IMG/VR virus record: IMGVR_UViG_3300044714_000134 | Coordinates: 1-38,276 of that record | Reading direction: 5' to 3' (one strand) | DNA from: a virus | Length of the DNA stretch: 38,276 nt | Part shown: piece after piece, positions 1,430 through 30,592 of the stretch | Layout of the letters: the number at the start of each line of letters is the position of its first letter | Position numbering within the stretch: the first letter of the stretch is position 1 | Program-made: the position numbers and the translations under genes | The notes under the pieces: generated by a model | Told to the model about the DNA's origin: nothing | The model's database searches: none | The model's input: the letters and a program-made list of their open reading frames with translations, nothing else

Positions 1430-3970
1430 CTATGAAGACGAGTTGTCGTCCAGGCTCGTGATCATGGAATTGTCCTGAGACGACGTGTCCACAGGCGCAG
1501 GAGGCGCGGTGGTCGCGGCGACCGCCTCCTGATTTGCGGCAAACGGATCCTGAGGAGTCGCGGTCGGCGCCGGCGCCGGCGTGGAAGCGGAAGATGGAGC
1601 GGGAGACCCAGCCGCAGCCTTGCCCGTTGCCGTAGCAGCGCCGCCAAAGATGCTGGTCAGGGCCGCCGTCCCGGCACCCGGAGCCCCAGTTGCGGTCGGC
1701 TTGAATAGGCTCATCGCGCTCGACATAAGTTTCTGGGCCAGAGTCTGAGGAGCTCCAGCGGCTGGAGTTGCCGGACCCTTGAAGATCATGTACGCCGCGA
1801 GCGCTCCGCCGCCGAGCAAAAGGTACGTCCCCGTGCTCGACTTTCCGCCCTTGCCGCCGCTGCGCCGACGAGATGGGTTCCTCTTATAGGAAAGCTTCTT
1901 CCGGCGGGTCATCCAGTACGCCAGGCCGCCGATGGCGGTCACCACGAGTAGAGGGACTCCCCACCCCGTCAAGTTGAAGGAGAACCCAGACGTCGGAGCC
2001 GCCGAACCGACGATCGCTGTGACTCCAGCCTGAACAGCTTGAGCGACAGCGGCCGAGTCTGCGGGGTCGACCACGCCAACGATGGCGTTCGTGATGTTTC
2101 CGGCGGCTGCGGAAGACGTGGCCGGGTCGACCGTCACGGACTGAGTCTGGCCGAGGCCAGATACACCGCGAGAAGGTCTTCCAAGAACGGCAGCAATTCG
2201 AGATGGATGGACTCCGGCTTTGCGGGCCGCTGCGGGAAGCATCCGCTTCACATGGGCATGGACGGTCTTATAAAGAGAGTTGCTGTTGCCGTTCCCGACC
2301 GGGATCGCCCTGACCCGGCCGCCGAGACCGCCGAGACCGGACAGGCCGTACAGTTGCGGATTCCACTCGAGGGATGGGTCGTCCAGCCAGTAATCGTTCT
2401 GGCCGGCGCGCATCGAACTGTCACGCCGAGTGCCGGCACTGACGGGGTGATGCGCCCTGGTGGCGGGCGTGCGGGCCTTCCCGCTGCCCTGCTTGATCTT
2501 CTTGACGACCGCAGCGGTGGCGGGAGTCGAAGTCGTGTTCACGATCGAAGCGTCTCCGGCCTGGACGGCATCGACCACTTTCGCAGCAGCGGTGGACGCA
2601 TCCGACGGAGCGATAGCCCCGGCGGCGACGGCGTTCGTGACATCCTTTTGGACGGCGTCCGCGACCGCAGCGACCGCGTCGTCTCCAAGACCTCCGAGAT
2701 TGACGCCTCTCGAGTAGTATTCCCCGAGGCCGGATTCCGATCCGTTCATCTTCGGAAGCCAGGAGAGAGACGGTTCGTTTTCCGATCCAGAACCGGTCGA
2801 CCCTGAGCGCGCGGACCTCTTAGTTGCGATGGCCGTGAGAGTCGCCGCAGTTGCGGGATTCTTCGAGACCGTCACGGCGTCACCTTTAGTGACAGCGTCG
2901 ACCACGGCAGCCGCATGGGCGGTGGCTTGGCTCGGGGCAATCGTACCAGCGGCAACCTTGGCTTGGGTGTCCTGGGCGACCGCAGAGACCACGGCGGCGG
3001 CCTCGTTGGGGTCCGCATCACCGAGACCTGCCATTCCGATCGCGTAACCACTCCATGCGTTTTTCATGAGATTTTTCTCCGATACATTCGGCTGAGGAAG
3101 AGCCTTCGACCAGTCGGTCTTCCAGGGTTCCATATACCCCCAAGCATTGAGGTGGATGGGGACATCCTTTCGAGCGATGAAAGACCAGGCATCCCGGTAG
3201 CTCTTCTGGCTGCGGATCGGGTAATGACCGTCGTAGGGGATCCCGCCGGCCCCTGGCTGCGTGGTCGTATCCGAGAACCGAGCGACCATGGCGCGCGGCG
3301 TGCCGGGCTGAGGCCTGGGCATGTCGATCTGCGACCCAGCGGCCGGATCCGCGTACGTGTGCGAGATGTCGTTCCGAACGTCCGGGGTCAGATTGATCGG
3401 GGACAGGCTGGATCTGAAAAATGGAGGCATTCCTAGTCCCTCGACGGTGGCGCTTTCGTACCCACTGACCCCGACGTCCTGCCGGGTCCAGATTCTCCGG
3501 TCGGTGATCCCGGCGGACGGGCGCCAGCCGACGGAACTTCCAGCGACGGTCACGTCAAGCGCGGTCCACTTCCCACGAGTGTTCAGTTCCGGATAGACGT
3601 GGCAGGGTTCCTTGTCGGGACGCGTCGAGACGGTGACGAAGCGGGAAGGGTTCCCCATCACCTCGCCCATTGCGGCGATCAGGATCGAGAAGTCGTCGCA
3701 ATCGGCGCGAGCGCGATTGATCGTGCTCCAGACGTCCTGGACCAGTTCGACGCCGTACGGGTCCCGTGTGTACTTGATGTTCGACTTCACCCAGTTGAAG
3801 ATCGACCGGACTTCGCCGGAGTAGTCTTTTCCGGGGACGGCTTGAGTGATCTGGTAGACGAGCTCCTGGAACTTTGGATCGGTGACGGCCTGGCCGACCA
3901 GCTGGTACATCCGCTGAATGGTGCTGGATGTCAGAACGTTTTCGGAAACGTCCTCGAGCATACTGGCCAC
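1430..3970 (-). CDS. Transglutaminase-like (papain-fold) protein with Ala-rich repeats and two membrane segments
   Basis: 846 aa from the GTG at 3970, which sits five bases after GGAG. An in-frame TTG at 4015 lies inside a terminator hairpin and lacks a ribosome-binding site. The N-terminal domain (about residues 50-150) carries the transglutaminase-like triad: Cys91 in RADCDDFS, His124 in CHVYPE and Asp139 in ALDVT. This fold includes proteases and peptide-crosslinking enzymes. Two Ala-rich tandem repeats (about 310-380 and 430-500) and a weaker third follow. Hydrophobic stretches occur at LLVVTAIGGLAYWM, followed by a very basic RRKK...KRNPSRRR patch, and at LLLGGGALAAYMIF. The C-terminus is Pro/Ala/Thr-rich. 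GLG tripeptides recur (VEGLGM, MAGLGDA, ESGLGE, LGGLGDD, VSGLGQ). A virion scaffold or maturation enzyme is inferred; the domain call is solid. Confidence 0.75.
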   Translation of the reverse strand: MASMLEDVSENVLTSSTIQRMYQLVGQAVTDPKFQELVYQITQAVPGKDYSGEVRSIFNWVKSNIKYTRDPYGVELVQDVWSTINRARADCDDFSILIAAMGEVMGNPSRFVTVSTRPDKEPCHVYPELNTRGKWTALDVTVAGSSVGWRPSAGITDRRIWTRQDVGVSGYESATVEGLGMPPFFRSSLSPINLTPDVRNDISHTYADPAAGSQIDMPRPQPGTPRAMVARFSDTTTQPGAGGIPYDGHYPIRSQKSYRDAWSFIARKDVPIHLNAWGYMEPWKTDWSKALPQPNVSEKNLMKNAWSGYAIGMAGLGDADPNEAAAVVSAVAQDTQAKVAAGTIAPSQATAHAAAVVDAVTKGDAVTVSKNPATAATLTAIATKRSARSGSTGSGSENEPSLSWLPKMNGSESGLGEYYSRGVNLGGLGDDAVAAVADAVQKDVTNAVAAGAIAPSDASTAAAKVVDAVQAGDASIVNTTSTPATAAVVKKIKQGSGKARTPATRAHHPVSAGTRRDSSMRAGQNDYWLDDPSLEWNPQLYGLSGLGGLGGRVRAIPVGNGNSNSLYKTVHAHVKRMLPAAARKAGVHPSRIAAVLGRPSRGVSGLGQTQSVTVDPATSSAAAGNITNAIVGVVDPADSAAVAQAVQAGVTAIVGSAAPTSGFSFNLTGWGVPLLVVTAIGGLAYWMTRRKKLSYKRNPSRRRSGGKGGKSSTGTYLLLGGGALAAYMIFKGPATPAAGAPQTLAQKLMSSAMSLFKPTATGAPGAGTAALTSIFGGAATATGKAAAGSPAPSSASTPAPAPTATPQDPFAANQEAVAATTAPPAPVDTSSQDNSMITSLDDNSSS

Positions 3971-3981
3971 AGGGTCTCCAG

Positions 3982-4032
3982 AAATAAAAAAGTCCCGGAG
4001 TACTGGATACTTCAACTCAGTACCGCGGGGCT
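3982..4032 (-). terminator. Rho-independent terminator, read on the minus strand
   Basis: Plus-strand arms at 3992-4005 (GTCCCGGAGTACTG) and 4018-4031 (CAGTACCGCGGGGC) pair over most of their length. On the minus strand the hairpin is followed at once by TTTTTTATTT. On the plus strand the other side has only CTTTT, so termination would be stronger leftwards. It separates 4099-6504 from the transglutaminase-like gene, whose GTG lies only 12 bases past the T-tract. Confidence 0.7.
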
Positions 4033-14175: not shown

Positions 14176-14480
14176 TCCCTCACATCATCCAGATCACTTT
14201 GCCTCCCTGGGTTCAGGCTCTGGTCGCGATCACGGCGATCCTGGCGAACGTCGGGACCTTCGCGTTCGTCATCTTCGTCCTCTGGCCATCGATCCGGAAC
14301 CAGGAGCGGCGATCCGGCAAGCTCGAGGCTTGGGTGGACGGTCCGGAAGGACAGCGAATCAAAGCTGCGGTCATTTCCAAGATCGACAAAGCCGATGGCC
14401 TCGGATCCGCCAGCAAGCCGGCCGATAAAGCAAGCTGGTGGACCGACAGGACTGAAGACGGTGAACGCAGTGAGCTTTGA
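14172..14480 (+). CDS. Small membrane protein with one N-terminal membrane segment
   Basis: 102 aa, ATGA overlap with the zinc-finger-like gene. Residues about 12-40 form a membrane segment (VQALVAITAILANVGTFAFVI) followed by RNQERRSG, placing the soluble helical C-terminus in the cytoplasm by the positive-inside rule. Its last codons overlap the GTG start of the large glycosyltransferase gene. A spanin- or holin-like role, or an anchor for the glycosyltransferase complex, are possible; nothing decides. Confidence 0.55.
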   Translation: MIPHIIQITLPPWVQALVAITAILANVGTFAFVIFVLWPSIRNQERRSGKLEAWVDGPEGQRIKAAVISKIDKADGLGSASKPADKASWWTDRTEDGERSEL

Positions 14481-16314
14481 ACGGATCAACCTTGTCACTG
14501 CGGTCTCCAGGCCGGAGAATCTCGTCCGGATCCACAAGTCGATCGCCTCGTCGCTCTCGAAGTCTTCACTTCGAGCCCGCTGGATCCTAGTCGTAGACCA
14601 CCCCGAAGCGATCTGGCCGGGGATCGAAATGTCGCTCCGGTCCGAGAAGATCGACGTCGACAAAGTGGTCTACTCCGGACCGAAGTGCCAGTACGGTATT
14701 CTGCAGAAAAATCTCGGCATGGACACGATCACCGACGGTTACTACCACCTGCTCGACGACGATAACTTGGTCCATCCAGAGTTCTTCACCGGTATCGAGC
14801 GGGCCATGGCCGGGAACCCATCAGCTCGCGCGTTCGTGGTCAGCCAGTGTCGGTGGGACAACGCCGGCAGCCTGCTCGCGTCTCCGGACCGGATGGAGTA
14901 CGGACAGATCGACAATACGATGTTCGTCGTCCATCGGGACCTGATCGGCCAAAAACGGTACAACATCGAAAAGTCGGGTCACGAAGACTTCTATTTTTTC
15001 AGAGAGCTCTGGGAGTCTCATCCCGGAAAGTTCGTTTTTATCCCTCAGATCCTGGCCTACTACAACTACATCCGGTGCTGGCCGGTGGAGACGTCCCACG
15101 AACCGATCGTAATCGGGGGCATATCAGACGTTTTGAGGCCGACTCTTCTGATCGCTCGGCCAGCGATGCCGCCTCAACTTCAGCAGCCCTCCTCGCATCC
15201 TTCGCTTCCTTCGGCGCCAATTCTGTCGCCTCACCCGATCGTCACCACCCCGTCCATCTGGCCAACGAATCCTATCGTTGAACCTCCGAGGAAACCGAAA
15301 ATGAAAATCGCGATGTACAGCTCGAAGCGTGAACGGTGCGGAATCTCGACCTACACGTCGCACCTGGCCGATGCACTCACCGGACTCGGATGCGAGGTCC
15401 AGTACTTCAGCAGCCAGCCTCCCTACGAGCAGAGGTTCCAGGAGATCCTGGCGTGGAAGCCCGACGTCTTCCATTTTCAGCACGAGACTTCGATCATGCC
15501 GGGAGGTGGGGACGTCGCCAGGTTCTCAGCCATGCTCCGGCAGAATGGAGCGAAAGTCTTCATCACTCTTCACACGGAAAGTCACGAGAATGTCCAGATC
15601 GGACGGTCTGCCGGACCGATCATCATTCACCGTCCGTCGCAGCACGCGCCGGACGCTAACATCCTGCCGATGCCCTGCACGAACGCGCCAAACCTTCCAG
15701 AACGGTCGGCCGCGCGCCGGCACTTCGGGATCCCGGACTCCGCGCTCCTGATCTCGACCGTCGGATTCATGATCCCATGGAAAGACCATCCGAAGGTGCT
15801 CGAGATGCTGGCTCCCTGGATGCGTAGTCGTCCGGACGTCCATATCCAGTTGATCGCGAGCGCGCATTTCAATGAGAGTCTGCAGGGGTACGCCCACCTC
15901 TGCCGCCAGCAGATTGCTCATGTCGCGGCCGGCGCCGCGATCTCCGATCGCGTCCACCACATTGACAGCTACCCTAGTGACCTGGAGCTGGTTAACCGGC
16001 TTTCCATGTCCGACCTCGGGTACGTCTGGTGTCCGTTCGACACGGGTTCGGCCTCCGCAGCCGGATCTCAGTTCATCTCTGCCAAGTGCCCGCTGGTTGC
16101 GACCGACTCCAGTCACTACATGACTTTGGGGGAGGGCACCGTCCGTGCCTCGAAAGGGAGCATGGCGGAATTCGTCGCGCTGATCCAGAGGACGGCCGAA
16201 GATCGTGGCCTGCTGGATCGGCTCCGGTCGAATCAGGACGCCGTCTACGCAGCCAGAAATTACACCGAGACCGCTCGGAAGCATCTTGTGATTTACAACG
16301 GAGGGAGAGTCTGA
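14461..16314 (+). CDS. Bifunctional glycosyltransferase: GT-A domain fused to GT-B domain
   Basis: 617 aa from the GTG at 14461. The N-terminal GT-A-like domain (about 1-225) has INLVTAVSRPENL, a DxD-type motif in YYHLLDDDNLVHPEFF and a second acidic motif at GHEDFYFFREL. A proline-rich linker (about 226-280) follows. The GT-B domain begins at MKIAMYSSKRERCGIST, has the interdomain signature VGFMIPWKDHPKVLEML and a late-domain stretch FDTGSASAAGSQFISAKCP. GT4-like enzymes use nucleotide sugars. The two modules probably add successive sugars of one glycan. An internal ATG at 15301 behind GAGGAAA could also make the GT-B part alone. It opens the glycan operon and overlaps the next gene by one base. 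Confidence 0.75.
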   Translation: MNAVSFERINLVTAVSRPENLVRIHKSIASSLSKSSLRARWILVVDHPEAIWPGIEMSLRSEKIDVDKVVYSGPKCQYGILQKNLGMDTITDGYYHLLDDDNLVHPEFFTGIERAMAGNPSARAFVVSQCRWDNAGSLLASPDRMEYGQIDNTMFVVHRDLIGQKRYNIEKSGHEDFYFFRELWESHPGKFVFIPQILAYYNYIRCWPVETSHEPIVIGGISDVLRPTLLIARPAMPPQLQQPSSHPSLPSAPILSPHPIVTTPSIWPTNPIVEPPRKPKMKIAMYSSKRERCGISTYTSHLADALTGLGCEVQYFSSQPPYEQRFQEILAWKPDVFHFQHETSIMPGGGDVARFSAMLRQNGAKVFITLHTESHENVQIGRSAGPIIIHRPSQHAPDANILPMPCTNAPNLPERSAARRHFGIPDSALLISTVGFMIPWKDHPKVLEMLAPWMRSRPDVHIQLIASAHFNESLQGYAHLCRQQIAHVAAGAAISDRVHHIDSYPSDLELVNRLSMSDLGYVWCPFDTGSASAAGSQFISAKCPLVATDSSHYMTLGEGTVRASKGSMAEFVALIQRTAEDRGLLDRLRSNQDAVYAARNYTETARKHLVIYNGGRV

Positions 16315-17132
16315 TGGAAGAATCCTGGAAGCCGGAAATCTGCATCGGGATCCCGACTTTAAATGGTCCCGAGCGTCTTGAGCGGTGCTTACGCTCGATC
16401 ATGCGATACACACGCCTGGGGAAGTTGAAAGCTCAGGTGTTTGTCTCCGACGACTGTTCGTACGAGAAGAAGCTTGCGGAGAACAAAACCGTCTGCAACG
16501 CTTACAGGGTTCCCATCCTGATGGTCAAAGAGCGAATCGGAGTCGCGCAGCAGTGGAACCTCCTCGTCCGCCATACCGAAGCTCCCATCCAGATCCTGAT
16601 GAACGACGACATCGAGGTGACCGAGCACTGGCTGGAGGCTCTGGTCTACACGGTTCGCGAGAACGCTCACGCCGGAATGGTCGCCTTGAAAGCGTACCAG
16701 GGGGTGAACTCCACGAACTGGTCTCCCCCTCCTCCGCTCTCGTACGCCGAGAGTGTTATGGAGCGGGGTTCCGGCCTTCTCTCTTCGTGCGGGTACCTCT
16801 TCGCATTCGAGAGAAAGAAATGGGAGAAGATCGGAGGGTTCGATCCTCAGTTCTTCGCCTTCTACGAGGAGATCGACTTCGGGATCAGGATGTTCAACGA
16901 GGGCTGGCCTTCGTACATGCTGTCCTACCCGATCGTGATCCACCAGGGTGGAGCGACGACTTCCGACCCCGGCAACATCGACGCCCAGAACGTCATGGCC
17001 GAGAGCCGCGAAAAGTTCAAGAAGAAGCACCCGCTGATCGCGGACATCCGGGCCAAGATGGACGAGGCGATGGAAAAGAAGACCTGTAAAAATAGGCAGT
17101 GGAACACGGCGCTCCTGAATACCATCGACTGA
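16314..17132 (+). CDS. GT2-family glycosyltransferase
   Basis: 272 aa, ATG behind GAGGGAGAG. A GT-A fold is evident: ICIGIPTLNG at the N-terminus, FVSDDCS, then the DxD-like ILMNDDIEV. The acceptor-side motif is GGFDPQFFAFYEEIDFG, containing the catalytic-base type ED pair. It is related to the intein-containing gene at 18262 (SSCGYLFAFER here, CPMGAAFAFRR there) but has no intein. It should be a cytoplasmic transferase using a nucleotide sugar. It overlaps both neighbours by single bases, so it is co-translated with them. Confidence 0.85.
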   Translation: MEESWKPEICIGIPTLNGPERLERCLRSIMRYTRLGKLKAQVFVSDDCSYEKKLAENKTVCNAYRVPILMVKERIGVAQQWNLLVRHTEAPIQILMNDDIEVTEHWLEALVYTVRENAHAGMVALKAYQGVNSTNWSPPPPLSYAESVMERGSGLLSSCGYLFAFERKKWEKIGGFDPQFFAFYEEIDFGIRMFNEGWPSYMLSYPIVIHQGGATTSDPGNIDAQNVMAESREKFKKKHPLIADIRAKMDEAMEKKTCKNRQWNTALLNTID

Positions 17133-18262
17133 TGATCAAGATCGCCTTTGTCTCGCAGACTCTTGCTCCCATGGGTGGCGGCGCAAAAGACATCGCCATC
17201 ACGTTTCTCCATCTCAATCGTCAGGTCTTCGACCCCTACGTTTTCTCGCTTTCCGATCCGGCGGCCTGGCGGGACGAGTATGGGATCCCGGCGGACCGTG
17301 CGCGCGGCGTCGACATCTGGAACATGAGCGCGATCACCGAGGCGCTTCGCGGATTCGACGTCGTCTACCTCATGGTCGGCACGACGAACGAGCCGTCGGA
17401 GTACGAGACGATCTGGGCAGCCTGCGCCGCTAACGGTGTGAAGGTTCGGGTCATGAGGATCGTCTTCGGTCTCGGGAATCCAAAACCGGAGATGGCCGAC
17501 TTGTTCCTGACCTCGAGTATGGATTCGCACTTGGTCGGAACTCCATGCCGTGGGTGCCACGTTATCTACCCTCCGCTTCCTACTCATCAGTGGATTGGAG
17601 ATCGGGTCGCCTTTCGGGCAAGGCACGGTATTGGAGAGGGAGACCGCGTCATAGGGTACTCCTGCGCGGATCATCGGCCGGAATTCTTCGAGGTTGCCAG
17701 CCTGTTTCATCAGGATGGTAACCCGACGGTATTTCTGTCTGCCTTGTCGAGGCCGGATCATGACGTCCCACCGAACATCCGGTTTTGCGGGACGCTACGT
17801 CAGCGCGAAATGGGGTCTTTCTACGAAGCAAGTGACGTGATCCTTCACACCAGGACCGAGTCGTTCGGTTATTCGCCTCACCAGGCGATGGCGGTAGGTA
17901 TTCCAGTCGTTGCGCTCTGGACTTCTTCGAGGAACGCCTTTGCAGAGACCATGTTTCCGCGCGGGGGATGGCTTTCGAAGACGTCAGCCGGTCTTGTAAA
18001 AGCCCTAAACTCCATACCGACATTTGAGTGGGGTGGAACGTCTCGTGCGGAGTTTGCTAAAAACCGGACGCTAAAAATGATTCCTGAAAACTCTGTCGGG
18101 CGGCTCCAGAATTTAATCCTAGACTCTCTCTGTGGGAAGGGTCACTTCATGGACGCGTCATCAATCATGCCGAATCAATATGTGACCGATAACGATGTGG
18201 AAATTTGGAGGAACAGCAGGATCGAGATCGAACGACGTCTCGCGTCCGAGCTGTACATCTAA
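17132..18262 (+). CDS. GT-B (GT4-like) glycosyltransferase
   Basis: 376 aa, ATG in a TGATG overlap. A Rossmann start (IKIAFVSQTLAPMGGGAKD) with a glycine-rich loop is followed by DVVYLMVGTTNEPSEYE. The C-terminal nucleotide-sugar domain has RVIGYSCADHRPEFFEVA and the EX7E-like signature ESFGYSPHQAMAVGIPVVA. Length fits GT4 enzymes. The last 60 residues are divergent. Its stop overlaps the next ATG as TAATG. Substrate unknown. Confidence 0.8.
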   Translation: MIKIAFVSQTLAPMGGGAKDIAITFLHLNRQVFDPYVFSLSDPAAWRDEYGIPADRARGVDIWNMSAITEALRGFDVVYLMVGTTNEPSEYETIWAACAANGVKVRVMRIVFGLGNPKPEMADLFLTSSMDSHLVGTPCRGCHVIYPPLPTHQWIGDRVAFRARHGIGEGDRVIGYSCADHRPEFFEVASLFHQDGNPTVFLSALSRPDHDVPPNIRFCGTLRQREMGSFYEASDVILHTRTESFGYSPHQAMAVGIPVVALWTSSRNAFAETMFPRGGWLSKTSAGLVKALNSIPTFEWGGTSRAEFAKNRTLKMIPENSVGRLQNLILDSLCGKGHFMDASSIMPNQYVTDNDVEIWRNSRIEIERRLASELYI

Positions 18263-20331
18263 TGGTCCGTCCAGGCGCCTGCATAGGAATCCCGACTTAC
18301 CGTGGTTGGCAACGGGTCCGCGGCCTGCTCGAGAACATCAAGCAGCGGACTGACGGTGCCAGCTACCCATTCACTGTAGTCGTCTGCGATGATTCCGGCC
18401 GTGAAGAGCATCGTGAGAGGGTCAGGGAGGCGTGTCGCGATTACAGGGCCGAGCTCATCGAGCACCCGGTCAATCGCGGCCTGCCGGCCGGATGGAACAG
18501 CCTGGTCCGTGCCACCGATCACGAGATGGTCGTCCTGTTGAACGACGATGTGCTGCTGTCCAGGGATTGGCTTTCCTACTTGTCCTACGCCGTCCTCCAG
18601 AATCCGAAAGTCGCGACCGTCTCGCTCAACTGCCGGTTCATCACGCCGGACGACGCGACGGAAATCTTGAAGGGGCCGGAGGCGAAGGTCATCCCGCTCA
18701 ACGTCCGGTACGTAAACGGAGTTCTGATCCGTCACGAACGCTTCTCGACGATGCCGGAGCAGCCCGACGACTGGCCCGGCAAGGTCATGTGCCTTCCTCC
18801 TGGGCAAGAAATAGTAACTGACCGTGGGTTGCTAAAGATTGAAGATGTATGTATCGGTGATTATGTTCTTTCCCATAAAGGTCGCTGGCGGCGCGTTTGG
18901 AAAACAATTCAAAGCGATTATGAGGGTCTTCTTTATAAGATTCTCCCGTCTCGCGTGAACTTGCCGTTTACGGTTACAGAAGACCATCCTATTTTAGTAG
19001 CAAGTGGAGAGAAATGTAACTACAACGGCGGATACTGTACCTCTAAGAAAGCGGAACACTGCCGAGACCATTCCGACGATCGTCTCCCAAGTGAGAATTG
19101 GGTAGCCCCTCGGGATCTGTCTAGTGGTTCCTTCTTAATGCTTCCTCGTTTCACAGCTGTTACACCTCGAGTTAGAATTGACTTGGCAGATGGAATAAAA
19201 CTTCCAGAACTTTCACGTTGGAGTATTACGAAAGATAAATTTATCCTTCATGGGACAAATAAAAAATCAATTCCACGGTACGTGTCAATCACTCCTGACC
19301 TTCTTCGTTTTTTTGGTCTTTTTATAGCCGAAGGATCTACAGAGCTTAGTAACGGTGGATGTATTAGTTTTAGTTTTAACGAAAGTGAAAATGATTTCTG
19401 CGATCTCGTTCAGAAAGTCGCTAAGAAATCTTTCAATCTCTCAAGCAGTATCCATCGAGAAAAAGAGGACCACAGTGTTTACGTGAACATCCATTGCCTT
19501 CCGTTGGCACTTGCGCTTCGTCATATGTTTGGAGAGAAAGCAAACCAAAAACGTATCCCCTGGTGGATGATGGAGCTTCCTCCATATCTACAAAAATATA
19601 TTACTGACGGGATGCTTGACGGTGACGGCTGCTCTAGCATCCACGAAAGTGGATACATGAGAGCTCATTACGATACCGTTTCACCTCTATTGGCGTGGCA
19701 GTTTTTTCAATTACTTTGTCGTCAAGAAATCCTATGCACATTTAGTAAGGTTTCCAGGAAACCTACAAATGAGAAGTGGCAAGATATTTACCATTTTACA
19801 ATGACCCAGAACCCTCAGGGAGGGTTCATGGATAAAAAATACGTCTACCTTCCGATTCGAGAGATCACGGAATCTCCGTACAAAGGAAAGGTCTACAATC
19901 TTGAGGTAGAAGAGGACGAATCCTATTGCGTCCCGTCATGTGCAGTTCACAACTGCCCCATGGGCGCAGCCTTCGCTTTCCGTCGGTCCGTCTACGACCA
20001 GGTCGGCGGCTTCGACGAGCGGTATCGCTGCTTCTACGAGGAGACGGACTTCGGGGTCGCCTGCGCCCGTCAAGGAATGCCGTCGATCACGATCCCGGTC
20101 CCTCACGACAACTACCACATGTGGTCGGCCACGTTCGCGTCGTCCCCCGAGGTCCCCGCTGGCCAGATCATGAACGAGTCTCGCGCCAAGTTCGTCGCAA
20201 AGTGGTCGGAGATCCTGGGCGTGAAGTTCAACGACGCTCCGGAGATCCACAATCTTCTTATGGACAAGATCCCTCAGTTCGAGGTCAAGTGGCTCGGCGT
20301 CGGAAAGAGGCAGCGAGCCCAGGTCATGTGA
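18262..20331 (+). CDS. GT2 glycosyltransferase interrupted by an in-frame intein
   Basis: 689 codons: N-extein 176 aa, intein 388 aa, C-extein 125 aa. The spliced enzyme would be about 301 aa, the normal GT2 size. The N-extein has CIGIPTYRG, VVVCDDSG and VVLLNDDVLLSRDW. The C-extein starts CPMGAAFAFRRS and continues GGFDERYRCFYEETDFGVA, the ED motif. The intein therefore sits just before the conserved strand ahead of the catalytic-base motif, a typical conserved-site insertion. Without splicing, the nucleotide-sugar half and acceptor half would be separated by 388 residues. TAATG overlap with the preceding gene. Extein codons are GC-rich and intein codons clearly AT-richer. Confidence 0.9.
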   Translation: MVRPGACIGIPTYRGWQRVRGLLENIKQRTDGASYPFTVVVCDDSGREEHRERVREACRDYRAELIEHPVNRGLPAGWNSLVRATDHEMVVLLNDDVLLSRDWLSYLSYAVLQNPKVATVSLNCRFITPDDATEILKGPEAKVIPLNVRYVNGVLIRHERFSTMPEQPDDWPGKVMCLPPGQEIVTDRGLLKIEDVCIGDYVLSHKGRWRRVWKTIQSDYEGLLYKILPSRVNLPFTVTEDHPILVASGEKCNYNGGYCTSKKAEHCRDHSDDRLPSENWVAPRDLSSGSFLMLPRFTAVTPRVRIDLADGIKLPELSRWSITKDKFILHGTNKKSIPRYVSITPDLLRFFGLFIAEGSTELSNGGCISFSFNESENDFCDLVQKVAKKSFNLSSSIHREKEDHSVYVNIHCLPLALALRHMFGEKANQKRIPWWMMELPPYLQKYITDGMLDGDGCSSIHESGYMRAHYDTVSPLLAWQFFQLLCRQEILCTFSKVSRKPTNEKWQDIYHFTMTQNPQGGFMDKKYVYLPIREITESPYKGKVYNLEVEEDESYCVPSCAVHNCPMGAAFAFRRSVYDQVGGFDERYRCFYEETDFGVACARQGMPSITIPVPHDNYHMWSATFASSPEVPAGQIMNESRAKFVAKWSEILGVKFNDAPEIHNLLMDKIPQFEVKWLGVGKRQRAQVM
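18790..19953 (+). mobile_element. Intein with LAGLIDADG homing endonuclease
   Basis: 388 aa. Block A starts at Cys1: CLPPGQEIVTDRG...KIEDVCIGDYV. Block B has the TxxH pattern (FTVTEDHPILV, about residue 60-70). Two LAGLIDADG-type motifs follow: RFFGLFIAEGST (about 174-184) and YITDGMLDGDGC (about 270-282). Block F is YKGKVYNLEVEEDESY and block G ends SCAVHN, with penultimate His and terminal Asn; the +1 extein residue is Cys. All residues for class 1 splicing and both endonuclease catalytic acidic positions are present, so splicing and homing activity are likely. Lower GC than both exteins supports horizontal acquisition. Confidence 0.92.
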
Positions 20332-20342
20332 TTGGAGGCGAT

Positions 20343-21104
20343 ATGAACTTTGAAGAACTCTCCGAGTTGGCCAGGTCCTTCGTCAAGGTGACCAAGGAAG
20401 AATGGAACGTCCTTTTCGAGACGCTCAAGGACGACGCGGCGATGAACCTCATCATGAAGAATGAGTGGTTCAGCAAACCCAGGGACAGCGATCAGGCGGT
20501 GATCGAGTATTACCGAGAGAGCAAGATCTGGTTTGTTAATACGTTCAATCACGCCTACCGGGCGCTGCTGTCCCTGGCCAACAAGGACTCCGGCGGCCTG
20601 TCCAGGGAGGCGTGGCATCAGTTTTTCGAGGCCGAGCTCAACACGGGGGACCGTATCTTGGATTACGGAGGAGGATTCTGGAACGACACCGCGATCCTGG
20701 CGCTCGACGGATGGAACGTGACGCAGGCCGAAGTTCTCGGACCGACGACCGATTTTCTGACGGCATTCGTGAACTTGACCGGGACACAAAAGAACCTTCA
20801 GGTGCTTCCGGTCGACAGCGGCTCTCCGATCCGTGAGACCTACGAAGCTGTCACCTGCTTCGAGCTCCTGGAGCATCTTCTACATCCGAAGGAGTTCACG
20901 GTCCATCTGAGAGATCATCTGGCTCAAGGGAAGCCGTTCGCCTCGTCCGTCTCTTTTAGCGCACCCGAGCACGCCCCCTACCACGTCGCCTCAAACGAGC
21001 CGCTCGGACGCGGGTACATTTGGCTGGATACGATGCAGGAGATGGGGTTCGAGCAGATCTGGGCTCCTAGGGGATCGCATCGTAGGATCTGGAGGAAACG
21101 ATGA
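20343..21104 (+). CDS. SAM-dependent methyltransferase (class I), glycan operon
   Basis: 253 aa, ATG behind GGAGG. The N-terminal 100 residues are helical. The Rossmann core carries the SAM-binding motif RILDYGGGFWNDTAIL (about 103-118), the acidic strand WNVTQAEVLG, and post-motif stretches EAVTCFELLEHL and FASSVSFSAPEH. The ELLEHL variant is common in sugar and small-molecule methyltransferases of glycan loci. It may methylate a sugar of the glycan made by the surrounding enzymes. Overlaps the next gene by ATGA. Substrate not determinable. Confidence 0.75.
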   Translation: MNFEELSELARSFVKVTKEEWNVLFETLKDDAAMNLIMKNEWFSKPRDSDQAVIEYYRESKIWFVNTFNHAYRALLSLANKDSGGLSREAWHQFFEAELNTGDRILDYGGGFWNDTAILALDGWNVTQAEVLGPTTDFLTAFVNLTGTQKNLQVLPVDSGSPIRETYEAVTCFELLEHLLHPKEFTVHLRDHLAQGKPFASSVSFSAPEHAPYHVASNEPLGRGYIWLDTMQEMGFEQIWAPRGSHRRIWRKR

Positions 21105-22363
21105 AGAGGATCCTACTTCTAGACCATCCTCAGTTCACCTCCTGCACGTTCTATCTCTGGCACGGACTTCGGGAGATCGAGGAGGCCTATCCCGGGTCGT
21201 TCGAAGTGTCGGTCTACCCGTACATTCCGACGCACTACGACAAGCAAACTTTCCGGCTCTCGGACCTCCCCTGGTTCCGGTGGCTGAACGCTCAAGTGGA
21301 GGCGTGGAAGAGCACCGGCAAGTATCCGGACGGGATCCCGCCATTCCAAGCCACCGAAACGCTCACGTCGCTCGACACGAACGAGATCATTCGAAGCCAG
21401 ACCACTCCAAGGCTGTTCCACGAACGGAACCTACTTCCGGACGAGGATTCGGTCGTTCGAAAGTTGGAGGCTGGAGAGTTCGACTTGATCGTTCTTGGGA
21501 ACAGCCATCGAGTTCCGACGATCCTGCTCGCGCTGCTCAAGGCTCGGGTCAGGAATCTTCCTCCGATCGTCTACCTGGACGCCGGCGAGCGCGACGAACT
21601 GAACGAGCACTGGATCCACGTCTTCCGTCCGAATTTAATCTTCAAGCAGATTCTGACGCCGGCAGTGAAGGTAAAAGGCCTGACCACTCCGATCCCTGGG
21701 TACCCGTTCAAGATCTACCCCCTTCCTCTCTCGTCACCCCTGGTCGACCAGAGCATCGAGTTCTTCGGGGTCTCTGTCCAGTGGCTCCGTTCGTTCTCGA
21801 ACTGCAAGAAGAATCCGAAGGTCTTCCCGGTCTTCTACCCTTTCGGGATGACTTGGCCGGAGCGGGCGAACGTCGTCGCGGCGCTCGATCAGTGGGTCCT
21901 GGAGGGAAAGTACTCTGTCGCGCGCGGAGCTCCGACGGGCCCGTACCACATCCTGATCGCGATGTCCAAGATGGCCGTCTCGATGCGCGGATCCGGACGG
22001 GACACCGATCGCTACTGGAGCATTCCGCTCTACCAGACCGCCATGATTTGTGACGGAACGATGGGCTGCATCCACCCATACCCGTTCGAGGATCGGAAAA
22101 CGGCCTACTTCTACAGGTCGATTCCGGAACTGATCGACATCGTTAATCGGATCCAGAAGGACGATCGGGAGATGCTGGATGTCGCCGTCGCCGGCCAAGC
22201 ACACCTACAGAAGTACCACTCGACGGCGGCCCGGGCGGTGTTCTTCCTGGACATCCTGGACAAAGAGCTCGGCTTCCAGGACCAAACGCTCCGAGAGTCG
22301 CTCGCACACTTTAAGTCGAGTAGAGGGTGGGACGGAAGGGCCTGGGAGGGCCCGGTCGTATGA
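21101..22363 (+). CDS. Glycosyltransferase-like protein (GT-B, exostosin/CgeB-like pattern), copy 1
   Basis: 420 aa, ATGA overlap. It starts KRILLLDHPQFTSCTFYLWHG. Other signature stretches are DLIVLGNSHRVPTILLALL, YLDAGERDELNEHWIHVF and FKQILTPAV. A late motif SMRGSGRDTDRYWSIPLYQTA then precedes a G-CIHPYPFEDRKT segment. The GSGRDTxRYW...G stretch resembles the nucleotide-sugar site of exostosin- or CgeB-like GT-B enzymes. A close tandem paralogue follows at 22360. Both end in WEGPVV. This copy is GC-richer. Sugar specificity unknown; the family call is by motif pattern. Confidence 0.6.
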   Translation: MKRILLLDHPQFTSCTFYLWHGLREIEEAYPGSFEVSVYPYIPTHYDKQTFRLSDLPWFRWLNAQVEAWKSTGKYPDGIPPFQATETLTSLDTNEIIRSQTTPRLFHERNLLPDEDSVVRKLEAGEFDLIVLGNSHRVPTILLALLKARVRNLPPIVYLDAGERDELNEHWIHVFRPNLIFKQILTPAVKVKGLTTPIPGYPFKIYPLPLSSPLVDQSIEFFGVSVQWLRSFSNCKKNPKVFPVFYPFGMTWPERANVVAALDQWVLEGKYSVARGAPTGPYHILIAMSKMAVSMRGSGRDTDRYWSIPLYQTAMICDGTMGCIHPYPFEDRKTAYFYRSIPELIDIVNRIQKDDREMLDVAVAGQAHLQKYHSTAARAVFFLDILDKELGFQDQTLRESLAHFKSSRGWDGRAWEGPVV

Positions 22364-23616
22364 AGAGGATCCTGTTCCTGGATCACCCTCAGTTCACCTC
22401 GGCCACCTACTTTCTTTGGCAGGGCCTGAAGGAGTTGGAAGCGGCCTTTCCGAAGGATCTGATGATCTCGAGCTATCCGTATATTCCAATCAACTACGAC
22501 GAGGACTCCTGCGATCTCCGATCGCTCACTTGGTTCAACCAGCTTCGAGATCTAGTTGAGTGGTCGAAAAGCGGTAGGACGCACCTTCCTGACGGGGTTC
22601 CTTCATTTCACGATACAGAATATCTGACCGCTGAGAACGCATCTGGAATCACCCGAGGACATCCATGGTTCCGCCCAAAGAAGGAGAACATCGTCGAGAG
22701 CGAGGATCAAGCGATCCGGATGCTCCGTGACCATAAGTTTGACGTAATTGTTCTCGGAAACAGCCACCGGGTGCCTACGTTGCTGCTGGCGCGGCTCCGG
22801 GACTGGGTAAAAGAACTTCCTCCGATCATCTACTACGATGCTGGCGAGCGCGACGAATTGAACGAGCACTGGATTCATGTATTCAAACCTGCGGTAGTGT
22901 TCAAGCAAATCCTGACGCCGGCAGTCAGAAATCTTGGGATGACCCAGAAGATCGAAGGATACGAATTAAAGCTTTATCCACTCCCGTTGTCCTCACCGAT
23001 CGTCGATCATGACATCAGTCTCGAAGGGGTTTCGATTCAATGGCTCAGAAACCGGTCAAGGACAACGAAAAAGCTTCTTCAGATTTTTTACCAGATGGGG
23101 GAGACCTGGATTGAGCGTGCTTCCGTAATGGAAGCTCTCGATGATCTTCTTTACGAGAAGAGGATTTCATCGATAGGGAAGTGCTCGTACATCGACTACC
23201 ACTACGTCATTGCAAACTCGAGAATGGCCGTCACGATGAGAGGGTCCGGACGAGATACCAGCAGATACTGGGAGATCCCACTGTACTCCACTGCGATGAT
23301 CTCTGACGGGACGATGGGGTGCATTCATCCGTATCCGTTCGAGGACAAGAAAACCGCGCTCTTCTACAGATCAATCGAAGAGCTCGTAAGCGTTGTTAGC
23401 GAAGGAATATCCGACGATTCTCAGATCTATAGGGTTTCTGTCAACGGTCAGGAGCATCTCCAGAAGTACCATTCCGTCTCGGCAAGGGCCGCATTCTTTC
23501 TGGACATCCTCGACAAGGAGATCAACCTTTTCGACAAAAACCTCAGAGATTGCCTTAACGGATGGAAGATCAACAGGAAGTGGGACAGTCGCCCTTGGGA
23601 AGGTCCGGTCGTATGA
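22360..23616 (+). CDS. Glycosyltransferase-like protein, tandem paralogue copy 2
   Basis: 418 aa, ATGA overlap with copy 1. Nearly every block of copy 1 is kept (KRILFLDHPQFTSATYFLW, VIVLGNSHRVPTLLLARL, YDAGERDELNEHWIHVF, TMRGSGRDTSRYWEIPLY, CIHPYPFEDKKTA, final WEGPVV). The middle regions have diverged and the codons are AT-richer. This looks like an older duplication or the import of a homologue from another phage rather than a recent copy. The pair probably adds related sugars to different acceptors. Joined by ATGA to the next gene. Confidence 0.6.
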   Translation: MKRILFLDHPQFTSATYFLWQGLKELEAAFPKDLMISSYPYIPINYDEDSCDLRSLTWFNQLRDLVEWSKSGRTHLPDGVPSFHDTEYLTAENASGITRGHPWFRPKKENIVESEDQAIRMLRDHKFDVIVLGNSHRVPTLLLARLRDWVKELPPIIYYDAGERDELNEHWIHVFKPAVVFKQILTPAVRNLGMTQKIEGYELKLYPLPLSSPIVDHDISLEGVSIQWLRNRSRTTKKLLQIFYQMGETWIERASVMEALDDLLYEKRISSIGKCSYIDYHYVIANSRMAVTMRGSGRDTSRYWEIPLYSTAMISDGTMGCIHPYPFEDKKTALFYRSIEELVSVVSEGISDDSQIYRVSVNGQEHLQKYHSVSARAAFFLDILDKEINLFDKNLRDCLNGWKINRKWDSRPWEGPVV

Positions 23617-24476
23617 ATCGGGCGATCATGACCTCGACTACCTCAAGCACTTACGACTTCTTCCTTCCGATCTGCGCGAAGCTTTGGAGAGATAGGATCG
23701 GGTACGAGCCCCTTATTTTTTTTGTTGGGACTCCAGAGGAATGGAGTTCAGGGCACAGAAAAGTTGTCCTCGATGAGGTATCGAAAGAGAATTACCCGGT
23801 AGAGTGGGTTGGTCACATAGAAGGCATCGAAGACTTCACGGTAGCTACGTGCATGAGGCAGCACGGTGCAGCACTTTCGTGGCTCGACCCGTCAGATCTC
23901 ATGGCCGTTGGAGACGTTGACCTCTTTCCGGTCAGCAGGGAATTCCACAGTCCTCATGATACCCGTAAGAACGAACTCGCGATCCGGCACGCCTCCAACT
24001 ATGGACAAAACGGAAAATACCCGGCCTATGGTCCGTGTATGCCAGTCTCAACCTGGAGAGAGGTAATGAGATTGACTGTCGGGGATCCAATTGGGTCCAT
24101 GCTTAAGACATTCCAAGAATTTGGTCTTTACGAGATCGTCAAGCTTCAAAAAGCGAACCCAATGAAAGAGGACCGGCTGTGGTTTTTCGATGAAATAACA
24201 CTGTCGAAGAGAATCTGCGAAAGCAGGTTTGGGTCTAGTTTTTTACCAGTAGAAGGAGCTCCAGGACAAAGACTATGTAGGACGGCCTGGCCCGGTAGAG
24301 TGGTCGCGTCGAATTACGTCGACGCTCACTGTCCGAGACCTGGGTGGACCTACGAAAACTGGAAGAAAATAAAAGATCTATTGAAGCAAATCGAGCCGAA
24401 TTACTTCCCATGGCTTGATCGTTATCTCGCTGCATATAGAAAATCAGGGCCGTCTGTTGGGGATCCGTTCGCATGA
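23613..24476 (+). CDS. Putative GT-A-type glycosyltransferase with DxD motif
   Basis: 287 aa, ATGA overlap. It starts with TSTTSSTYDFFLPICAKLW and EPLIFFVGTPEEW. The GDVDLFPV stretch is a metal-binding DxD motif at the end of a hydrophobic strand (LMAVGDVDLF). Downstream blocks include KYPAYGPCMPVSTWREVM and DRLWFFDEITLSKRI, where acidic residues could act on the acceptor. Together these suggest a retaining or inverting GT-A enzyme of an uncharacterised family. AT-richer than the upstream methyltransferase gene, like its neighbour copy 2. Overlaps the acetyltransferase gene by ATGA. Confidence 0.6.
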   Translation: MNRAIMTSTTSSTYDFFLPICAKLWRDRIGYEPLIFFVGTPEEWSSGHRKVVLDEVSKENYPVEWVGHIEGIEDFTVATCMRQHGAALSWLDPSDLMAVGDVDLFPVSREFHSPHDTRKNELAIRHASNYGQNGKYPAYGPCMPVSTWREVMRLTVGDPIGSMLKTFQEFGLYEIVKLQKANPMKEDRLWFFDEITLSKRICESRFGSSFLPVEGAPGQRLCRTAWPGRVVASNYVDAHCPRPGWTYENWKKIKDLLKQIEPNYFPWLDRYLAAYRKSGPSVGDPFA

Positions 24477-25111
24477 TCGCGACCCATTCCCAGATGTACA
24501 GCGATGTCTTCGACTTCAAGGTTGGAGTCCTCGAGACGAAGCCGCCGATCTACGCGTACGACGTGAAGTCCAACAACAAAGGGCATTTCGACGTTGTGTT
24601 CGTGAAGTCCGATTCTTGGGTGGATCCCCATGGAGACGTGACTGCGCTCGACTATCTGTACGACATGGAATTTGAGCCAGGTCATAAGATCACGAAGCCG
24701 ACCACGAGCTACCAAGTCTCGGACTTCGAACACGTCAAGATCGCTCAAACGGCGTTTAAGGATAGCCGGTTCCTGAGAGACCACATGCTCCACCAGAACG
24801 TCGAGCGGATGTTCTCTGGGTGGATCTCCAGAAAAATGGTGCATGTTTTTGGCGGAGCCCCTCTCGATGCGTTCCTCTACGAGAACTCCGACGAAGACGG
24901 CGCCAGAAGAATATCCCTCCTGGCGGTAAAGGATTCCTGCCGAGGAACCGGCCTTGGAAAGCTCCTGGTGAACGGCGTCCTCGATACTGCCCCAGTTTCG
25001 TTGTGGCGCGTCAAGGTTTCCTGTAGGAACCACCGGGCGCTCAGGTTCTACGAGAGCATCGGTTTCCAGGTAAAATCCGTGAGCACTGCTTTTCACGTCT
25101 GGACCGTATGA
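24473..25111 (+). CDS. GNAT-family N-acetyltransferase, WecD-like
   Basis: 212 aa, ATGA overlap. The C-terminal GNAT domain has the acetyl-CoA pyrophosphate-binding motif A (SLLAVKDSCRGTGLGKLL, about 148-165) and motif B (VSCRNHRALRFYESIGF, about 182-198). The N-terminal half is a separate alpha/beta domain, as in WecD (dTDP-fucosamine acetyltransferase, 224 aa in E. coli). Directly upstream of a WecE-like aminotransferase, as wecD and wecE are adjacent in enterobacteria. Predicted role: N-acetylation of the 4-amino sugar nucleotide made by the aminotransferase. The GNAT call is firm; WecD function is inferred from the pair. Confidence 0.75.
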   Translation: MIATHSQMYSDVFDFKVGVLETKPPIYAYDVKSNNKGHFDVVFVKSDSWVDPHGDVTALDYLYDMEFEPGHKITKPTTSYQVSDFEHVKIAQTAFKDSRFLRDHMLHQNVERMFSGWISRKMVHVFGGAPLDAFLYENSDEDGARRISLLAVKDSCRGTGLGKLLVNGVLDTAPVSLWRVKVSCRNHRALRFYESIGFQVKSVSTAFHVWTV

Positions 25112-26247
25112 CCGTACCGACAATTCCATTCAACCGGCCGTCTTTAGAGGGGCGGGAGATCGAGTATATCCAGGACGCGCTTAGGGTCGGGCACGTCTCT
25201 GGGGATGGGCCATACACGCATCGCTGCTGCGAGCTCCTTGAAAAGACCTTGGAGGCCAAAAAAGTCATCCTTACGACGTCCTGCACCCACGCTCTCGAGA
25301 TGTCGAGCCTTCTCCTGGGTCTTCAGCCTAGCGACGAGGTTATCGTTCCGTCGTTCACTTTCGTTTCGACGGCAGCTGCCTTTGCGATCCGCGGTATCAG
25401 GCCGGTCTTCGTCGACATCCGGCCGGATACGCTCAACATGAACGAGTCCGACCTGGAGTCGAAAATAAGTTCGAAAACGCGCGCCATCGTTCCGGTCCAC
25501 TACGCCGGCGTCGGGTGCGAGATGGACTGGATTTTGGACGTCGCCATTCGCCACGGGCTTCGTATTATTGAGGACAACGCTCACGGATTGTTTGGAAAGT
25601 ACCGTGGACGTGAACTTGGAACGTTCGGTGCCCTCGGCACCCTCAGCTTTCACGAAACGAAAAACATCATTTGCGGAGAGGGCGGAGCCTTGATCGTGAA
25701 TGACCAGGCGCTGGCACAGCGGGCCGAGATCCTGTGCGAGAAGGGAACTAATCGGTCGACGTTCTTGCGCGGCTTGGTCGACAAGTATACCTGGGTGGAT
25801 CTGGGGTCGAGCTGGCATCCGTCGGACATCCTGGCTGCTTTCCTGTACGCCCAACTCGAGGCGAGAGAGCGGATCCTGCAGAAGCGCCGGCGCGTCTGGG
25901 AGCTCTACGACAACTACCTTGAGAGCTGGGCGTACCAAAACGGAATCAAGCGCCCACTGGTCCCAGCTCACTGCGAGCAGTCGTACCACATGTACTACCT
26001 TGTCCTCTCCTCTCCCGAGGAAAGGGATTCGCTGATGTCTCATCTTAAGAAGGCCGGAATCTCCAGCGTATTCCATTACGTCCCTCTCCACAGCTCTCCG
26101 ATGGGACTTCAGCTCGGTGGAAAAGTTGGAGATTGTCCGGTCACGGAATGGGTCAGCAGCCGCCTGGTCCGCCTTCCTTTCTACAACAACCTGACCTTCG
26201 ACGATCAGAGCCGAGTCGTCGAATCCCTGGTCGGATGGAAATTCTAA
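25108..26247 (+). CDS. wecE: DegT/DnrJ/EryC1-family sugar aminotransferase, WecE-like
   Basis: 379 aa, ATGA overlap. Very similar in layout to WecE (dTDP-4-amino-4,6-dideoxy-D-galactose transaminase): IPFNRPSLEGREIEYIQ, SGDGPYTHRC, TTSCTHALEMSSLLL, PSFTFVSTAAAFAIRG, VPVHYAGVGCEMD and the PLP lysine K185 in SFHETKN. The next blocks EGGALIVND, EKGTNRSTFLRG and DKYTWVDLGSS also match. A PLP enzyme using glutamate to aminate dTDP-4-keto-6-deoxyglucose. The genes making that substrate (rmlA, rmlB) are not in the window. Last gene of the glycan operon, followed by a new promoter at 26256. Confidence 0.9.
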   Translation: MTVPTIPFNRPSLEGREIEYIQDALRVGHVSGDGPYTHRCCELLEKTLEAKKVILTTSCTHALEMSSLLLGLQPSDEVIVPSFTFVSTAAAFAIRGIRPVFVDIRPDTLNMNESDLESKISSKTRAIVPVHYAGVGCEMDWILDVAIRHGLRIIEDNAHGLFGKYRGRELGTFGALGTLSFHETKNIICGEGGALIVNDQALAQRAEILCEKGTNRSTFLRGLVDKYTWVDLGSSWHPSDILAAFLYAQLEARERILQKRRRVWELYDNYLESWAYQNGIKRPLVPAHCEQSYHMYYLVLSSPEERDSLMSHLKKAGISSVFHYVPLHSSPMGLQLGGKVGDCPVTEWVSSRLVRLPFYNNLTFDDQSRVVESLVGWKF

Positions 26248-29350: not shown

Positions 29351-30592
29351 ATGGTAGAGGGTGTGGATTTTCATTCCTCCAGGATCCTGTCCGTCTGCTC
29401 CGGAGTCGGGCAGCTCGATACCGGCATCCGTGTGGCGCTCCCAAGGTCTCGCGTCGTCTGCTGCGTTGAGCACGAAGCATACGCCGCCCACGTCCTGGCT
29501 TCGCGCATGGAAGATGAAGCCCTGGATGCGGCGCCTATTTGGACGAATCTACGAACCTTCGATGGCCGTCCGTGGCGTGGCCTTGTGGATGGAATCGTTG
29601 GCGGCTATCCCTGTCAGCCCTTCTCTCAGGCCGGAAAGCGGCTTGGGGCAGAAGACCCACGCCACCTCTGGCCGGAAATCCTCCGACTCATCGGAGAGGT
29701 TGAGCCTGGGTGGTGTTGGTTTGAGAACGTCCGCGGACACCTTACAAAAGGATTCGACGTCGTCTACCGAGACCTTCGCGCAGCTGGTTACCGAGTTAAA
29801 GCGGGACTTTTCAGCGCGGAGGAAGTCGGCGCGAGCCACCAGAGAGAGAGACTCTTCATCCTCGCAATGGCAGACACCGGCGACGGACGCCTTCCGGTGC
29901 CGTGGCGGGGATCGGAAGGACGAGATGGGTCTGGATCAGAAAGCGCGAAACTGGTCGACCCCGACAGCTTCCGGCGAGGAGAGGGGCCCTGCCACGTACA
30001 AGCAGGGCGGGACGCCGCTGAAGCAGCAGGCTATGAAATGGCCGACGGCCACGGCACAGGACGCCGGTGGATCCGGACGGCACACGACGAAGTCAGGATC
30101 GATGCACCCAGGAACGACGCTGATGGATGCGATCCAGCTCTGGCCAACACCAAGGACGATCACGGGCGGTGCGGAGAGCGCGGAGCGGAAGCAGGAGCTC
30201 GGCCGGGAGAACTCGGGCGGCGGGGATCTTCAGGCAGCGGTGGAGAAGTGGCCAACGCCGAACCAGAGGGACTACAAGGGCCCGGACCTGAAGAGCCGGC
30301 ACGGCGGAGCGTCCCTCCCTCACTTCGTGGAGACTGGGGAGCGAGTTCACTCCCAATCTTTGCCCCAGGTCCCGGTGACGTCCGTATCTGGGGGCGAGTT
30401 GTCGAAGACGGGTCTACAAACGGCCTTGCGCCGTCGACTCAACCCGGCGTTCGTATGCTGGCTGATGGGGTGGCCTTGGTGGTGGACGAATCCCGGAGAG
30501 ATCAGCTCCGCGCGATCGGCAACGGGGTGGTACCTCTTCAGGCTTCGTTCGCATTTAGCGTCCTTACTCGCAAGATGGGAGTCGTTATCTAG
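29351..30592 (+). CDS. C5-cytosine DNA methyltransferase (Dcm-type)
   Basis: 413 aa. Motif I SVCSGVGQLDTG (14-25), motif IV with catalytic Cys88 in GGYPCQPFSQAG, motif VI ENVRGH (125-130), motif VIII QRERLFI (164-170) and motif X RAIGNGVVPLQASFAF near the end are all present, so the enzyme should be active. It transfers methyl from SAM to C5 of cytosine, probably to protect phage DNA from host restriction. The region between VIII and X is long, Gly/Arg-rich and includes repeated ADT/ANT/ANA triplets. The same DNA is also open and motif-rich in the +1 frame (see next entry). No restriction endonuclease is adjacent, so it is an orphan enzyme. Confidence 0.9.
   Translation: MVEGVDFHSSRILSVCSGVGQLDTGIRVALPRSRVVCCVEHEAYAAHVLASRMEDEALDAAPIWTNLRTFDGRPWRGLVDGIVGGYPCQPFSQAGKRLGAEDPRHLWPEILRLIGEVEPGWCWFENVRGHLTKGFDVVYRDLRAAGYRVKAGLFSAEEVGASHQRERLFILAMADTGDGRLPVPWRGSEGRDGSGSESAKLVDPDSFRRGEGPCHVQAGRDAAEAAGYEMADGHGTGRRWIRTAHDEVRIDAPRNDADGCDPALANTKDDHGRCGERGAEAGARPGELGRRGSSGSGGEVANAEPEGLQGPGPEEPARRSVPPSLRGDWGASSLPIFAPGPGDVRIWGRVVEDGSTNGLAPSTQPGVRMLADGVALVVDESRRDQLRAIGNGVVPLQASFAFSVLTRKMGVVI

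Follow-up and report, generated by a model that had tools for sequence, protein, structure and literature searches.

Inteins have mostly been described from DNA-handling proteins. A gene in the metagenomic IMG/VR virus record IMGVR_UViG_3300044714_000134 raises the question of whether a complete intein can also reside in the catalytic core of a phage glycosyltransferase, and whether it may still be mobile there. The record is a complete linear one of 38,276 bases, and this whole stretch was analysed and is called here the window. The reading that we favor, at a probability of approximately 0.93, is that the catalytic core of a phage GT2 glycosyltransferase has acquired a mobile intein of class 1 that carries a LAGLIDADG homing endonuclease, the splicing and homing activities of the intein being predicted from the sequence and from structural modelling. 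The mechanism of such an intein is ordinary; it is the host and the site that are new.

Organization of the interrupted gene

The open reading frame containing the insert extends over positions 18205-20331 of the plus strand. Its translation probably starts at the ATG at 18262, which overlaps the stop of the GT4 gene lying upstream, and ends with the stop at 20331. The gene thus delimited (18262-20331, plus strand) would encode a GT2 glycosyltransferase precursor of 689 amino acids (Pfam PF00535, 1.5e-13), composed of three parts. The N-extein (18262-18789, 176 aa) corresponds to the nucleotide-sugar-binding half of the GT-A domain and carries the Pfam GT2 match (1.5e-13). It is followed by the intein (18790-19953, 388 aa, precursor residues 177-564), a class 1 intein with a LAGLIDADG endonuclease by homology, motifs and model, and by the C-extein (19954-20328, 125 aa), which comprises the CPMGAAFAFRR strand and the YEETDFG motif and aligns to both an intein-free ortholog and a paralog. 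The lengths of 528, 1164 and 375 nt, respectively, are each divisible by three. The first cysteine of the insert (Cys1) is encoded at 18790-18792, the terminal His-Asn pair ends at 19953 and the codon of the +1 Cys occupies 19954-19956, so that the boundaries given in the initial annotation are exact to the base. When the intein is removed in silico, the joined exteins form an uninterrupted GT2 of 301 residues, the size that had been predicted for the spliced product.

Identity of the insert

All the motifs expected of a splicing and homing protein, i.e., blocks A, B, F and G, the two nucleophilic cysteines, the His-Asn terminus and two endonuclease motifs, had been listed in the initial annotation, and all of them are present; their conservation was read from an alignment of the intein with 63 relatives (64 sequences in total). 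Block A (18790-18828, CLPPGQEIVTDRG) begins with Cys1, which is found in 63 of the 64 sequences, the remaining row having a gap at this position. Block B (18976-18987) contains the T-x-x-H motif as TEDH, where H66 is invariant and T63 is present in 60 of 64. The first LAGLIDADG motif (19300-19338, LLRFFGLFIAEGS), recognized by Pfam and by the alignment, includes IAEG with the catalytic acid E181, and the second (19594-19632, KYITDGMLDGDGC) includes DGDG with D279, conserved in 63 of 64; both acids together are retained in 61 of the 64 sequences. In block F (19885-19932, GKVYNLEVEEDESYCV) V368, N370, V373 and D376 are invariant, and block G (PSCAVHN), together with the codon for the +1 Cys that opens the C-extein, lies at 19933-19956, with His-Asn in all 64 sequences. 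Residues invariant throughout the alignment include H66, N370, V373, D376, H387 and N388.

Profile and similarity searches gave the same picture. The insert alone matched the Pfam family LAGLIDADG_3 (PF14528, 2.7e-7), and the NCBIfam model for intein C-termini TIGR01443 was matched with 16.8 bits against a cut-off of 15.6. The profile made of the 64 sequences aligned with the whole of yeast PI-SceI (E 1.4e-20). In a tblastn search of the insert against 50,697 phage records, phage inteins aligned from Cys1 to His-Asn, the best at 8e-31. The end-to-end matches were to the portal protein of Eggerthella phage LE2-3 and to the cytosine methyltransferases of EBPR siphovirus 2, P1 (Dmt) and Pseudomonas phage Lana, and inteins of polymerases, reductases and terminases were matched at least in part. 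One of these records (L014:1003-3528), the dmt gene of Escherichia phage P1, is annotated as a DNA methyltransferase only; its intein homolog, end to end from Cys1 to His-Asn, sits at the P/C motif of the cytosine methyltransferase part, and similar matches were found in many Escherichia plasmids.

The AlphaFold2 model of the intein (pLDDT 90.8, pTM 0.90) displays a Hint fold in which the N- and C-terminal parts form one domain, and the solved structure of the TliVMA intein was superimposed on it with a Z-score of 30.0 (rmsd 3.3 over 316 residues, spanning residues 1-388). The Z-scores were approximately 21 for PI-SceI and 18 for the DnaB and RecA mini-inteins. A fold match to I-DmoI was obtained as well; the endonuclease core was modelled at high confidence, and both LAGLIDADG helices are present. 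Based on the end-to-end homology to phage inteins, the full set of splicing and endonuclease motifs and the model, positions 18790-19953 are classified as a complete class 1 LAGLIDADG intein inside a GT2 gene, as the initial annotation had proposed from the letters of the DNA.

Host enzyme and insertion site

The host is, by sequence and model, a GT2 glycosyltransferase with a GT-A fold. Its intein-free ortholog matches PF00535 with 5.7e-18, and the model of this ortholog, for which the pLDDT is only 61.5 overall and 70-90 in the core, resembles GalNAc-T2, PcManGT, K4CP (K4 chondroitin polymerase) and cellulose synthase with Z-scores of approximately 19. The Asn-Asp-Asp triplet of LLNDDVLL (18541-18549), aligned with both the paralog and the ortholog, forms a DXD-like motif predicted to bind metal and nucleotide sugar, and YEETDFG (20035-20055), conserved in the same two proteins, is the predicted catalytic acidic motif of GT2 enzymes. 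The intein lies between the two and adjoins the strand that leads into YEETDFG; the C-extein opens with CPMGAAFAFRR, and the initial annotation likewise had placed the intein just before the FAFRR strand and the acidic motif. Since the two halves of the active center must share one fold, the unspliced precursor of 689 residues is probably inactive.

The gene belongs to a cluster of glycosyltransferase and sugar genes on the plus strand (14395-26247), which is partly common to the phage carrying the ortholog. In addition to the gene under study, the cluster comprises a GT4-like gene (14395), a GT2 gene (16314), a GT4 gene (17099), a methyltransferase (20343), two further glycosyltransferases (21101 and 22327), an acetyltransferase (24473) and a DegT aminotransferase (25108).

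Two other genes of the window are recorded here as separate observations. In the C5 cytosine methyltransferase at 29351-30592 a Gly/Glu-rich stretch of approximately 135 residues separates the conserved parts; as a candidate intein these extra residues were rejected, their sequence having no intein features. The protein of 861 amino acids encoded at 1430-4015 on the minus strand contains a core resembling transglutaminases (PF01841, 3.1e-12) and matches no PHROG.

The empty site

A profile search of viral contigs retrieved an intein-free ortholog of the host gene (L097:2483-3379) from an IMG/VR phage contig of 132,563 bases, with 51% identity over 291 amino acids. The two proteins align across the junction without a gap: the ortholog reads APGRTM/CPTGCAFGFRREMWEKVGGFDERY and the window, with the intein taken out at the slash, reads WPGKVM/CPMGAAFAFRRSVYDQVGGFDERY, giving junction cores of PGRTM/CPTG and PGKVM/CPMG, respectively. 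At the DNA level 24 of the 40 bases flanking the junction are shared. The gene neighborhoods are also related, as the ortholog is accompanied by a GT4-like gene, by a GT2 akin to that at 16314 (39%), by a glycosyltransferase akin to those at 21101 and 22327 (37%) and by a methyltransferase weakly similar to that at 20343. Elsewhere in this phage contig no match to the intein of the window was obtained, in a search run without a positive control. From these alignments, the ortholog is regarded as a true empty-site form and constitutes the strongest new evidence for the intein. Where an intein relies on a +1 nucleophile supplied by the host, the Cys is expected to be there already when the intein enters. 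Because the ortholog reads through the junction gapless and with this Cys, the host Cys at +1 probably predates the insert.

The initial annotation had assigned the role of the empty site to the intein-free GT2 gene at 16314-17132 (plus strand). This paralog is continuous at the site in the protein alignment. As an empty allele the gene was discarded: it is only 31% identical, its DNA at the site has no similarity beyond a chance 10-mer, and it therefore shows only the insert-free form of the family. A near-identical intein-free allele, that is, an exact homing target, was not found either, the nearest sequence being the 51% identical ortholog with its 24 of 40 junction bases.

According to the proposed mechanism, the intein would have been inserted immediately 5' of the pre-existing Cys codon and the precursor would be made as a single chain of 689 residues. 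The Hint domain would then excise itself through a thioester at Cys1, transfer to the +1 Cys and cyclization of Asn388 assisted by His387, upon which the exteins would be ligated into the GT-A enzyme of 301 residues. The freed intein may cut intein-free copies of the gene, and repair of the break would copy the intein in.

Composition and alternative explanations

The third-position GC content (GC3) is 0.80 in the N-extein, 0.39 in the intein and 0.86 in the C-extein, and the step coincides with the boundaries. The AT-rich codons had been taken as a sign of recent transfer. By itself this argument is weak, since in 65 of 71 related cases, too, the intein is AT-richer than its host. The size of the gap, however, is exceptional: the difference in GC3 between intein and host averages -0.09 in these 71 relatives (s.d. 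0.08, minimum -0.30) and is -0.43 in the window, beyond all of them. This extreme position among the relatives supports the view that the intein was acquired recently and came from a genome richer in AT. AT-rich phages with the orthologous gene do exist, the GC3 of L097 being 0.22, although the contig of L097 has no match to the intein.

The same compositional step could also be read in another way, namely that the intein gene of a foreign genome was joined to the glycosyltransferase during assembly, as the contig is metagenomic and the GC content shifts abruptly at both boundaries. The boundaries nevertheless fall exactly between a Met and a Cys codon, the latter being present in the intein-free ortholog as well, and the frame is kept over all three parts, with Cys1 at the start, His-Asn at the end and the +1 Cys behind it. 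Two independent joins of such precision would be needed, which makes a chimera very unlikely. Even more improbable is that the LAGLIDADG protein is the product of a group I or group II intron, spliced out at the RNA level. LAGLIDADG enzymes are indeed known from introns too, but an Rfam search of positions 18000-20600 gave no match even at an E-value of 0.1, the reading frame is open throughout the insert, and the Hint splicing motifs and fold are complete.

The most probable of the alternatives concerns mobility only. The intein might splice while its endonuclease is inactive, in which case it would be a vertically inherited passenger that has lost the ability to move. Decay of LAGLIDADG domains is frequent, and no near-identical copy of the intein was found in another phage. 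On the other hand, the catalytic acids and the LAGLIDADG helices are intact and the core is confidently modelled. The sharp composition step speaks for a recent arrival, which would have left little time for the endonuclease to decay. Loss of mobility is thus a possible outcome but the less probable one, and a mobile, self-splicing intein remains our preferred interpretation.

Inteins in other glycosyltransferases

Searches with the single sequences of intein and host revealed no close relatives of either in viral contigs, and at the DNA level the phage collection contained nothing similar. Of 315 related loci in IMG/VR the best 80 were kept; their homology to the intein is end to end, from Cys1 to His-Asn, and even the nearest relatives are only approximately 30% identical to it. 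Twelve of these best 80 (of 315) viral loci have glycosyltransferases as hosts. Eight hosts are GT4-like, with the intein at or adjoining the EX7E motif (L017, L023, L035, L028, L049, L053, L055 and L058), and four are GT2-like, with the intein at or adjoining DXD (L036, L040, L095 and L082). Pfam was applied to ten of the 12 spliced hosts, and eight of them scored above the curated glycosyltransferase cut-off, L058 and L082 being below it; the host class of L035 and L049 was taken from L023 and L028, which they resemble. The N-terminal portion of L053 appears to contain another LAGLIDADG intein. The intein of a further locus (L080:3001-4293) lies in a protein similar to nucleotide-sugar reductases (TTTD/CVFNG), an additional sugar-pathway host whose family was judged by eye.

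In a tree of 77 inteins those hosted by glycosyltransferases are not united. The four DXD-site inteins form one well-supported clade, outside of which the intein of the window is located, and its nearest row by path, the GT4-hosted intein of L017, is placed next to it without support. A second intein at the same site of other GT2 enzymes, a check suggested in the initial annotation, was sought in viral contigs and genomes with DNA patterns of the C-terminal junction, which gave either chance matches or none. The patterns demanded His-Asn followed by Cys, Ser or Thr at the exact site, some of them also Arg at a fixed place, and the one used for genomes additionally Val ahead of His-Asn. As such patterns would miss many variants, the result is weak evidence. 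Among the top 50 matches of a structure search of viral proteins, many rows of which are nameless, the named hosts were reductases, polymerases, terminases, methylases and the like, and no glycosyltransferase was named.

We tentatively suggest that phage glycosyltransferases are a recurrent and largely unreported niche of homing inteins, in which separate lineages have settled at different catalytic motifs of GT-A and GT-B enzymes, i.e., at DXD, at EX7E and at the strand before the acidic motif, making sugar transfer dependent on splicing. Although this is at present rather doubtful, if it holds true, sugar transfer by such phages could be timed by splicing. The pattern of glycosyltransferase hosts is the more interesting result of the analysis, and a claim of preference needs a complete host count. 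The host described here together with the 12 loci of uncultured viruses extends the target range of inteins into the chemistry of surface sugars. This is in favor of the rule by which conserved catalytic sites, and not a function, are what inteins select. In addition, PGKVM/CPMG is a new extein context for splicing, and the empty-site ortholog allows direct tests of both splicing and homing.

Comparison with known systems

Chitin synthase is a GT2-family glycosyltransferase. Fungal chitin synthases (CHS) carry inteins, which are grouped with the fungal GLT inteins (PMC5784728). GT2 enzymes are consequently a known class of intein hosts, although the fungal CHS inteins reside in a eukaryotic nuclear gene and the one described here in a phage gene. 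Together with the 12 of the best 80 (of 315) viral loci, they modify the claim of an unusual GT2 host: unusual it is, but not unique. In the open-access literature we found no papers on inteins in phage glycosyltransferases, and the host class, unusual in general, is apparently unreported for phages. In a survey of mycobacteriophages every intein-hosting protein binds nucleic acid (PMC5050341). Cluster J mycobacteriophages have similar sugar gene clusters, with neighboring glycosyltransferase and methyltransferase genes, but their intein is in the terminase and not, as in the window, in a glycosyltransferase (PMC3706429).

Similarly to PI-SceI of the yeast VMA, TliVMA and PI-PkoII, the intein combines Hint and LAGLIDADG domains with blocks A, B, F and G and uses identical nucleophiles. 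It agrees with them in profile and in fold from end to end, at a sequence identity of approximately 15-20%. The hosts of these inteins are ATPases or polymerases, whereas that of the window is a phage glycosyltransferase. The inteins of EBPR siphovirus 2 gp44 and P1 Dmt are located at the P/C motif of cytosine methyltransferases, and that of Pseudomonas phage Lana is similarly placed. Along with the portal intein of LE2-3, these methyltransferase inteins share 23-28% identity and the +1 Cys with the intein of the window, but they occupy other hosts and sites and are not its nearest branch in the tree. The GT4- and GT2-hosted inteins of IMG/VR are homologous to it and, like it, are found at or adjoining catalytic motifs, the sites themselves being different (EX7E or DXD).
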